Shown: in pieces, positions 1,382-6,479 of the stretch
How positions within the stretch are numbered: position 1 is the first letter of the stretch
How the letters are laid out: the number at the start of each line of letters is the position of its first letter
Assembly (NCBI RefSeq): GCF_011039075.1
Contig: NZ_JAAKEG010000004.1
Location: 62,001-126,000, forward strand
Reading direction: 5' to 3'
DNA: 64,000 bases
Origin: Adlercreutzia sp. ZJ304
Lineage (GTDB): Bacteria; Actinomycetota; Coriobacteriia; Coriobacteriales; Eggerthellaceae
Program-made: the position numbers and the translations under genes
Notes under the pieces: model-generated
Databases searched by the model: none
Seen by the model: the letters and a program-made list of their open reading frames with translations, nothing else
Told to the model about the DNA's origin: nothing

Positions 1382-1421
1382 GTTCGCGTAAGATTCATTG
1401 ATCTGTATGGAAGCGAGAAGA

Positions 1422-4301
1422 ATGTCGCAAAGCGAAATAGTTATAAAGGGCGCTCGTGAGCATAACCTTAAAAATATAGATTTAACCATACCGCGAGATA
1501 AACTAGTTGTCATTACCGGTCTTTCCGGCTCAGGAAAATCTAGTCTTGCCTTCGATACTATGTATGCCGAAGGGCAGCGTAGATATGTTGAAAGTCTTTC
1601 CAGCTATGCGCGGATGTTTTTAGGTCAAATGAACAAACCTGATATCGATTCTATAGACGGGCTTTCTCCTGCTGTATCTATTGACCAGAAGACTACATCT
1701 CGTAATCCTAGATCGACTGTGGGTACCACTACGGAAATATATGATTATCTTCGTTTGCTTTATGCGCGTGTAGGAATACCTCACTGTCCTGTTTGCGGGC
1801 GCGAAATAAAGCGTCAAACCACCGATCAAGTTACAGACGAGATTTTGGGATTAGGCTCTGATGATACACGCGCTATGATTATGGCTCCCGTTGTAACCGG
1901 GCGCAAAGGTGAATTCACAAAACTTTTTACCGACCTTCAAAAAGAAGGGTTCGTGCGCGTGCGTATTGATGGAGAAGTTGTACGTTTAGAAGGCGAACCC
2001 ATAACTCTCAATAAGAAAATAAAGCACTTCATAGATGTTGTGGTGGACAGAGTAACTTTAAAAGATTCAGCGCGCAGTCGCATAGCTCAAGCCGTAGAAA
2101 CTGCTACAAAATTAGCTGATGGACGAGTGCTAGTTCAGGTGCTAGATAAAAACATTAACGCAGATGTACGAGATTCTAGCGTTTCTTCCGGTGCGAAAGG
2201 TGGTCTTGGAGAAGGGGAGTATGTTTTTTCGCTTGCTTTGGCTTGCCCAGAACACGGTTTCTCTATGGATGAATTGCAACCTCGCGACTTTTCTTTTAAT
2301 GCGCCATATGGTGCTTGTCCTGCTTGTTATGGCATAGGAAATAGGGAAGAGGTCGATCCGTCGTTAGTTGTGCCCGATCCTTCACTTACTTTGGAAGAAG
2401 GTGCTGTAGCTCCATTAAAAAATGGCAATTACTATCCACAGATACTTAAAGCGGTTGCTAATCATATGGGTGTAGCACCTGATACGCCATGGGAGGATAT
2501 GCCCAAAAAAGCTCAGACGGCAATAATGAATGGTTTAGGTAGCCAGAAGATTCGTGTTGACTATGTAACGGTGGATGGGCGCAACACATATTGGTTCATA
2601 GAGTGGGAGGGCGCACTAGAAGTTATACGTCGCCGTTATGCCGATGCTGATACTGATGCAAAGCGCGAAAAATTGGAAGTCTATTTCGATACTGTGTCGT
2701 GCGAAGAATGCAAAGGAAAACGTTTACGTCCTGAAATACTAGCTGTAACTATCAACGATAAATCTATCTTCGATGTAACCAATTTGTCTGCTGCCGACTC
2801 GCTTAAGTTTTTCAAGAGTTTAAGTTTTACTGGGCAAGATGAAATGATAGCAGCACCTATTGTGAAAGAGATAGTTGCAAGGTTGCAATTTTTGGTTGAT
2901 GTAGGGTTAGACTACCTTACTTTAGAGCGTGCTACAGCTACACTTTCCGGTGGAGAAGCGCAAAGAATTCGCCTTGCCACACAGATTGGTGCGGGCTTGA
3001 TGGGAGTTCTTTATATTTTGGATGAACCTTCCATTGGGTTGCATCAGCGCGATAATGCAAGATTAATATCTACTTTGAACCATCTGCGCGATTTAGGTAA
3101 TACCGTTATCGTAGTTGAACATGACGAGGATACCATGCGCTCAGCCGACTTTTTGATAGATATGGGACCGGGCGCGGGCGAACACGGCGGATATGTTGTT
3201 GCATCAGGTACGCCTAAACAGGTTATGAGGGCTAAAAACTCGCTTACTGCCGATTATTTATCGGGTAGAAAAGTTATTGATGTGCCAAAGGAAAGGCGTA
3301 ACCCCAAACGTGGAACACTGAAGATAACAGGGGCTTGCGAAAATAATTTACAAGATGTTACGTTAGAAATTCCTCTAGGTACTTTAACGGTTATCACAGG
3401 TGTATCGGGTTCGGGCAAGAGTTCTCTTATTACAGACACTTTAGCTCCGGCTATGGCAAATCGTCTGAATCGCGCGCACCGCAAATGTGGACCGTATAAG
3501 AAGATATCTGGGTTAGATAAATTGGATAAAGTTATCAACATAGATCAGAGCCCTATTGGGCGAACTCCAAGATCTAATCCGGCTACATACATAGGGCTTT
3601 GGGATGATATTCGCGCGCTTTTTTCGTCTACAGCAGAGGCAAAGGCTAGGGGATATTCACCGGGACGTTTTTCATTCAATGTTAGCGGGGGCAGATGCGA
3701 GGCTTGTAAAGGCGATGGTCAGATAAAAATTGAGATGCATTTCCTACCGGATGTTTATGTTCCTTGCGAAGTTTGCGATGGTAAGAGATACAACCGAGAA
3801 ACGCTAGAGGTTACATATCGAGGGAAAAACATATCGGATATATTAGATATGACCGTAGATGACGCATTGGCATTTTTTCAGAATATACCCGGAATTAAAC
3901 GTAAGCTTCAAACCTTATATGATGTAGGCTTAGGTTATATCAGGCTTGGGCAGCCGGCTACTACATTATCTGGTGGCGAAGCTCAACGCGTGAAGCTTTC
4001 TAGCGAATTACAAAAGCGCTCTACTGGCAAAACGTTCTACATCCTTGATGAACCGACTACAGGTTTACATTTTGAGGATGTGCGTCAATTGCTTGTTGTA
4101 TTGCAAAGATTAGTAGATGGCGGAAACACAGTCTTAATTATTGAGCATAATCTTGATGTTATAAAATGCGCCGATCATATTGTTGATTTGGGTCCTGAAG
4201 GTGGCTATAAAGGCGGTAAGATTATTGCAGCCGGCACTCCTGAAGAGATTGCGCAAACTGAAGGTAGCTTTACTGGTGAATTTCTTAAACGTATATTGTA
4301 G
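1422..4301 (+). CDS. uvrA: Excinuclease ABC subunit A
   Basis: The damage-recognition ATPase of nucleotide excision repair. About 959 aa from the chosen ATG, matching the family's 940-950. Two ABC modules are visible: first Walker A GLSGSGKS (residues 33-40), first zinc module CPVC, an LSGGEAQR signature, second Walker [10 protein letters not shown], the CEACKGDG...CEVC zinc finger, a second LSGGEAQR and [13 protein letters not shown] 1422 is preferred over in-frame TTG 1398 and ATG 1407 because [17 protein letters not shown] matches the normal UvrA N-terminus and GAGAAG lies just upstream. It is separated from uvrC (about 19 kb) and uvrB is not in the window. A LexA-like box lies in its promoter. 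Confidence 0.97.
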
Positions 4302-4364: not shown

Positions 4365-5099
4365 ATGGAGAACCGTACTCGGGAAAAAGTCGGGCTGATT
4401 ATCTTTTTTGTGCTAATCCTTTTGGGTGGCGCAATATTGTTGGGGTATTTTGCCACCGGTCTTACTTGGACTGTATATGCAACTATGGTAGATGATACTG
4501 TAGGCAATATGGGCGGATACACCGCTGTAGTGTATCAGGGTACTACTAGTGAAGATGAACCAAGCGATTCTGAAAACACTTCAAACAACGAGGAAGATCA
4601 GGATGATATTCCGATAGTAGTTGACACTATGGGTCTTCGGATTATGTCGTATTATCCCGGTATTTATTCTGATGACTATTCGGGCGTGTATATTTCTGAT
4701 GTAAGAGACTTATACGAGAAAAAAGATGCCGAGGTTGTAACTATTGACACTCAAAGCATTTTAAATTCTGAACCGCAAATTCTTCATGCCGGCAATAAAG
4801 TTATTGGTGTATTTGGGGCAAAGTCTTACGTTACGAAGCCGGCATTAAAAAAGATAGTTGCGGGGCTAAAAGACAAGGGTGCAGATGTCATAATTTGCGT
4901 GACGAAACGTATGGCGCTTCTTTCGTCTCTTGAAGGAATAGATGTGGTGATATTAACGGATAATTCTGAAGAATACTCTGTAACTGGCACGCGCGAAGGA
5001 GATACGCTTATTGTTCAGGCACCAAAAACGGGCGAAGCCGGTGTGGTGCTATTCTCTAGCAACAACATCGCCTCCGCCCGCTCTATAGACGCGCTATAA
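4365..5099 (+). CDS. Membrane-anchored 5'-nucleotidase-like protein, probably catalytically dead
   Basis: 244 aa: a short charged N-terminus, one membrane span (about residues 10-35), an acidic Ser/Glu/Asp linker (about 60-85), then an extracytoplasmic domain. The domain reads like the second half of the CpdB/UshA metallophosphoesterase fold: a VIGVFGAK strand, LKDKGADVIICVT, GIDVVILTD and TLIVQAPKTGEAGVVLF. Normal members have metal ligands in LTH and GHTH motifs at these places; here they are VTKRM and TDNSEE, and no DxH or NHE motif is seen earlier. It is likely a pseudoenzyme with a binding or structural role. It follows uvrA by 63 nt but has its own -10, and converges on gdhA. Confidence 0.6.
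   Translation: MENRTREKVGLIIFFVLILLGGAILLGYFATGLTWTVYATMVDDTVGNMGGYTAVVYQGTTSEDEPSDSENTSNNEEDQDDIPIVVDTMGLRIMSYYPGIYSDDYSGVYISDVRDLYEKKDAEVVTIDTQSILNSEPQILHAGNKVIGVFGAKSYVTKPALKKIVAGLKDKGADVIICVTKRMALLSSLEGIDVVILTDNSEEYSVTGTREGDTLIVQAPKTGEAGVVLFSSNNIASARSIDAL

Positions 5100-5111: not shown

Positions 5112-6479
<1,368 letters not shown>

Follow-up and report, generated by a model that had tools for sequence, protein, structure and literature searches.

In a window of 64,000 nucleotides from Adlercreutzia sp. ZJ304 (genome G000; 2.0 Mb, 98% complete) we have studied a gene whose product we take, with a probability of about 0.6, to be a maintained, membrane-anchored and probably extracytoplasmic pseudoenzyme that binds a partner as a scaffold. 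Because the metal-binding residues have been lost, the protein probably works by binding its partner and not as an enzyme. It is a lineage-restricted variant of a known theme, in which the fold of an enzyme is kept without its chemistry.

The Gene and the Organization of Its Product

The gene is a separate open reading frame of 244 amino acids with an ATG start. It begins 63 nt after the stop codon of uvrA (open reading frame 1398-4301), and on its other side lies the convergent gdhA (5112-6443, reverse strand); in the window both names come from Pfam. For comparison we read 70 of the 102 copies detected in the family of the gene's carriers, taken as the Eggerthellaceae. One was dropped, leaving the 69 orthologues to which the counts below refer. 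The dropped copy (L098:1494-2369, in G063, a 75% complete genome) contains one in-frame TGA and is the only broken one among the 70.

The encoded protein has a single membrane span near its N terminus, followed by a strand, an acidic linker of low complexity and a compact α/β core. The features, with the evidence for each in parentheses, are:

4365-5099, + strand: whole gene, encoding a predicted membrane-tethered, metal-free 5′-nucleotidase-type phosphoesterase domain of 244 amino acids
4351-4356, + strand: TATAAT, putative -10 box, 8 nt upstream of the start codon (conserved in orthologues)
4365-4466, + strand: residues 1-34, short basic N-terminal stub and single membrane span (conservation; model)
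4467-4541, + strand: residues 35-59, juxtamembrane segment W-x-V-x-A-x-x-V-D-D-x-x-G-x-M leading into the first core strand TAVVYQ and G59 (conservation)
4548-4682, + strand: residues 62-106, acidic linker, variable and for the most part disordered (composition, length variation, pLDDT)
4683-5096, + strand: residues 107-244, compact α/β core, the rest of the phosphoesterase domain (pLDDT, structure and profile comparison)
4749-4772, + strand: residues 129-136, short turn replacing the GD and GNHD segment of the 5′-nucleotidase L058 (8 versus 72 residues)
4899-4907, + strand: residues 179-181, VTK where the metal ligand motif LTH would be (H at 181 in 0/69)
4956-4973, + strand: residues 198-203, TDNSEE in place of GHxH (GH.H in 0/69)

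Residues 2-39 form one long helix in the AlphaFold2 model. Three K/R and two D/E precede the span, and from these few charges we infer a cytoplasmic stub and a domain on the envelope side. The linker contains 13 D/E and a single K/R, acidic residues outnumbering basic ones in 63 of the 69 orthologues. It occupies the place of the loop that bears the first metal motif in active relatives. The spacing between G59 and Y117 ranges from 23 to 192 residues over the 69 sequences, and residues 65-105 have pLDDT values below 50. Computation thus bears out the proposal, made in an earlier note on this DNA, that the protein is tethered by one span and an acidic linker.

The Core Is Predicted to Fold as a 5′-Nucleotidase Phosphoesterase Domain

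A structure was predicted with AlphaFold2 using an alignment of 30 orthologues (A1), giving block means of pLDDT between 87 and 96 for residues 111-240. In a Foldseek search the top ranks were taken by SoxB and human CD73, with 15 chains at E values of 5e-5 to 2e-4. The best structural match is the sulfate thiohydrolase SoxB, with a VIA-align Z of 13.0 over 161 residues, an rmsd of 3.1 Å and 19% identity (model residues 43-244); UshA gave Z = 10.8 over 152 residues at 3.1 Å (model residues 50-244), and CD73 Z = 10.4. A divergent orthologue modeled from its own alignment of 28 sequences (A2) adopted the same fold, with Z = 13.8 for SoxB and 12.5 for UshA. Members of the VPS29/YfcE branch were matched at E values of 2e-3 or worse with probabilities up to 0.91, ranking below the 5′-nucleotidase branch.

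Profile-profile comparison of the core of the 69 sequences with 11 reference 5′-nucleotidases gave E = 4.7e-9 and a probability of 96. The reference set had been filtered to require two of the metal motifs and included one duplicate, leaving 10 distinct proteins, three of which (L058, L059 and L060) are matches of the orthologue profile itself. Nine controls (one reversed, five column-shuffled and three unrelated proteins) gave E values of 0.04-0.7. The stretches IGVFG, GADVIICV and GIDVVI align with the 5′-nucleotidases. Computation therefore shows that the predicted fold is that of the N-terminal (phosphoesterase) domain of the 5′-nucleotidase/SoxB type; the earlier note had recognized a CpdB/UshA-type fold, and the calcineurin-like model agrees.

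Searching Pfam, NCBIfam and the PDB with the single protein, or the PDB with the orthologue profile, returned nothing above chance, and this was also true for Pfam searches with 30 members, in which the best E value was 0.003 (Wzz, two members). The window protein has no match to Metallophos (PF00149) at E ≤ 10, and Metallophos is absent from the 15 Pfam families matched by any of the 30 members at that threshold. So is the C-terminal 5_nucleotid_C domain, which is likewise unmatched in the window protein. A library of viral structures gave no match at E ≤ 0.001. Since neither Pfam nor NCBIfam offers a family for it above chance, the protein would probably be labeled hypothetical.

The metal enzyme SoxB carries a C-terminal domain, and its gene has thiosulfate-oxidation genes as neighbors. 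UshA, CpdB and CD73, which combine Metallophos and 5_nucleotid_C domains, have the phosphoesterase-domain fold in common with the window protein. The latter differs in lacking the metal motifs, the GD/GNH[D/E] segment and the C-terminal domain, and in possessing an N-terminal membrane span.

The Metal Site Has Been Lost throughout the Orthologues

The dinuclear metal site of 5′-nucleotidases is formed by the motifs DxH, GD, GNH[D/E], H and GHxH. The earlier note had claimed that the first was missing and that LTH and GHTH had become VTK and TDNSEE, and this is how the sequence reads: strand TAVVYQ is followed by G-T, and the two replacements lie at residues 179-181 and 198-203. The GD and GNH[D/E] segment has been deleted, not just mutated, since the connection from strand 2 to the next strand is 8 residues long as against 72 in the active-looking L058, some 64 residues fewer. 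This deletion and the lack of a C-terminal 5_nucleotid_C domain go unmentioned in the earlier note.

We sought orthologues with intact metal sites, and each of the patterns D.HG, GN[HE][DE] and GH.H was found in none of the 69. Position 181, where the histidine of LTH would lie, is never histidine and is most frequently proline (34 sequences). A histidine occurs between positions 196 and 204 in L004 and L007, and loose patterns find stray matches outside the core (D[AG]GD in the linker of L096, [LIV][TS]H in the juxtamembrane part of L097). As a yardstick, we examined 30 loci with a 5_nucleotid_C match, taken without selection, and all four motifs were present in 20. Of the other ten, at least two (L083, L085) had been read in a wrong frame, the motifs being present at these loci; three gave short frames (L082, L090, L091), four were one motif short each (L066, L086, L088, L089) and one had no motif (L063). 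Since the loss of the chemistry is common to all 69 orthologues read, it is old in the family.

On these residues the two-metal route of hydrolysis is ruled out, as far as a sequence and a predicted model can do so, and hydrolysis of nucleotides is judged very unlikely. The C-terminal domain of 5′-nucleotidases recognizes the nucleoside; its absence excludes recognition by that domain and makes binding of nucleotides unlikely as well.

We have considered whether the protein could be an enzyme with a new active site, either metal-free or differently metallated. In many copies the former GHxH loop contains acidic clusters (STQDE) that could in principle bind a cation, but the old H and GHxH loops (positions 181-185 and 197-203) have no polar residue common to more than 39 of the 69 orthologues, and we regard this reading as very improbable. 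The old loops have residues specific to groups of orthologues, the groups being assigned by eye (TPR or TPD; STQDE). Together with the invariant G59 at the entrance to the former active site, these group-specific residues mean that another activity or a cation site may remain.

The Gene Is Maintained, with Strongest Constraint on the Membrane Side

The protein had been called decayed in the earlier note, a description that the selection analysis contradicts. Over 41 pairs of orthologues the median dN/dS was 0.25, with a range of 0.04-0.46, indicating purifying selection, and for this reason we regard the protein as a maintained pseudoenzyme. The pairs (at least 64% identity, dS up to 1.2) share sequences and are not independent; we restricted the analysis to them because distant pairs gave saturated values. 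That the gene is a decaying remnant of a 5′-nucleotidase is scarcely credible. The domain has indeed been shortened and its motifs lost, and one of the 70 copies (L098, in G063) has an in-frame stop, but the other 69 are open, all 41 close pairs have dN/dS of 0.46 or below, and the putative -10 box is conserved.

Constraint is distributed unevenly. The median dN/dS of residues 1-62, comprising the N-terminal span and juxtamembrane segment, was 0.10, compared with 0.28 for the core. Positions conserved in at least 80% of the 69 sequences include, in the N-terminal part, R6 (69 sequences), E7 (66), A10, L11 (68), F14, Y28 (69), N36, A39 (67), D43 (68), D44, G47 (67), M49, Y52 (66) and G59 (69), and in the core Y117, K120, A122, Y134, G148, P220, G226 and S237. 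The window protein deviates at two of these, having T at N36 and N at Y134. The strongest constraint is on the membrane side, although the invariant G59 is placed where the former active site opens.

This distribution bears on the suggestion that a small molecule (a nucleotide, phosphate or sulfur compound) is bound in the old pocket, the protein acting as a sensor or carrier. The invariance of G59, the group-specific residues of the old loops (TPR; TPD with STQDE) and D128, present in 53 of the 69 orthologues, would be consistent with such a role. Nevertheless, there are no metal ions to hold a phosphate, the C-terminal domain is missing, strand 1 leads into a disordered linker that varies between orthologues, and the N-terminal and juxtamembrane part is under more constraint than the core. 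We consider a small-molecule ligand rather unlikely.

Distribution and Genomic Context

Eggerthellaceae inhabit the gut of people and animals. Of the 138 family genomes searched at the protein level, 102 have a homologue at E ≤ 0.01, including 73 of the 92 of high quality. The remaining 36 (19 of high quality) have no detectable copy, and so the gene is not needed throughout the family. Within the genus of the window, G010 is the only other genome with the gene. A scan of genome contigs yielded one close relative.

A profile of the 30 orthologues of A1, searched against 395 genomes of the order, gave 106 matches at E ≤ 0.001, corresponding to the same 102 and four more among 257 order genomes outside the family. 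These four have E values between 2.7e-4 and 8.5e-4 and align with positions 161-230 of the profile, and every one lies in a protein that is 5′-nucleotidase-like by Pfam. In three the motifs are kept, the match lying at VVCLSH or VICLTH and then GHEH or GHDH; the fourth (L061) has no motifs. Since only about 0.26 chance matches would be expected at E = 0.001 in 257 genomes, the occurrence of four in one enzyme family is informative. When we sampled 246 genomes of the class and 296 of the phylum, sets that overlap the order, matches outside the family appeared in G304 and G314 only, and these are two of the same four. Beyond the family, the genomes sampled yielded no full-length member, the matches there being to 5′-nucleotidases only. 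Among the open-access PMC papers listed by literature searches, none dealt with this protein family.

The L061 protein (L061:1154-2824), from another family of the order, is a full-length 5′-nucleotidase-like lipoprotein that has also lost its metal motifs. It matches 5_nucleotid_C (E = 4e-18) and not Metallophos. Its relatives L162-L164 keep DxHG, GNHE and GHxH, and the loss in L061 is probably a second, independent one.

The gene might encode a subunit or regulator of an active 5′-nucleotidase in the same cell, as pseudoenzymes often are. It has the same type of fold, and in one sample of carrier genomes 12 of 19 also contain a 5_nucleotid_C gene. However, the other seven, the genome of the window included, have no 5_nucleotid_C match, making such a helper role decidedly unlikely. 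The window's genome, 98% complete, also has no match to Metallophos (PF00149), which is found in all 14 control genomes.

uvrA lies upstream on the same strand at at least 47 of the 69 orthologue loci, and gdhA downstream at at least 35 (counting matches with 55% identity or more); the flanks extend only about 1.5 kb, which makes both counts minimum values. The position directly after uvrA noted earlier holds in the window and is not fixed elsewhere, an intervening gene being present in some genera: EamA in L008 and L010, GNAT in L021, L022 and L026 (by Pfam). An EamA gene comes after the orthologue in L004, and a LytB gene before it in L006; the neighbors identified at orthologue loci are thus uvrA, gdhA, EamA, GNAT or LytB genes. 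In four family genomes without the gene (L137, L139, L141 and L143) uvrA is followed by gdhA, the latter recognized by eye. Tying the function to uvrA or gdhA by gene order is weakened both by the intervening EamA and GNAT genes and by the adjoining of uvrA and gdhA where the gene is absent. No full-length 5′-nucleotidase was seen at the uvrA site of other families among the 15 of 30 loci that were readable, six of them from other families; in 14 of the rest the pattern recognized no uvrA end, and one ended there.

A Proposed Scaffold at the Membrane

A binding role, as suggested in the earlier note, is the most parsimonious account and a likely one, and our preferred reading, that of a pseudoenzyme scaffold, can be set out as a mechanism. 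The N-terminal hydrophobic helix would anchor the protein in the membrane, and the conserved stub, span and juxtamembrane segment may bind a membrane partner. The core would act as a rigid module, devoid of metal, for binding a protein or a component of the envelope, and the acidic linker would cover the old active site as a flexible loop. We suggest tentatively that this is a family-wide Eggerthellaceae envelope scaffold, in which a dead 5′-nucleotidase domain, with a variable, disordered acidic loop replacing the first metal loop, uses its membrane-proximal surface to hold a family-specific integral membrane partner. The alignment offers R6, Y28, D43, G47 and G59 as concrete residues for tests of scaffold binding.

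Comparable cases occur in eukaryotes, with VPS29 as the precedent. The B-subunits of DNA polymerases keep an inactive calcineurin-like phosphoesterase domain as a structural subunit; this belongs to a different branch from that of the window protein and is bound to the polymerase. VPS29, a soluble protein, is part of retromer. Its phosphatase-type fold is concluded to serve as a metal-independent rigid scaffold (PMC3101248). The window protein resembles it in its predicted phosphatase-related fold and would likewise be a metal-independent scaffold. VPS29 differs in being eukaryotic, in belonging to another branch of the fold and in binding metal weakly. The present family provides a well-sampled bacterial case of an enzyme fold retained without its chemistry.

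Expression Signals

In 39 of the 69 orthologues the exact sequence TATAAT is found 6-10 nt upstream of the start codon, compared with a mean of 0.1 in shuffled sequences; for TANNNT the figures are 55 and 6.1. A Shine-Dalgarno-like stretch is seen in only two. Leaderless genes are marked by TA-like signals some 10 nt upstream of the start, and they make up on average 19.2% of genes in the Actinobacteria analyzed (PMC3160421). Judged from these sequence signals, the transcript is probably leaderless. A two-hexamer promoter scan of the window did not list the TATAAT site, and no terminator was detected in the intergenic stretch behind uvrA. Transcription may therefore also read through from uvrA. 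Seven of the 14 copies that lack TANNNT lie 11-57 nt after uvrA, as co-transcription would predict, yet L112 and L113 have the box at 24-25 nt after uvrA.
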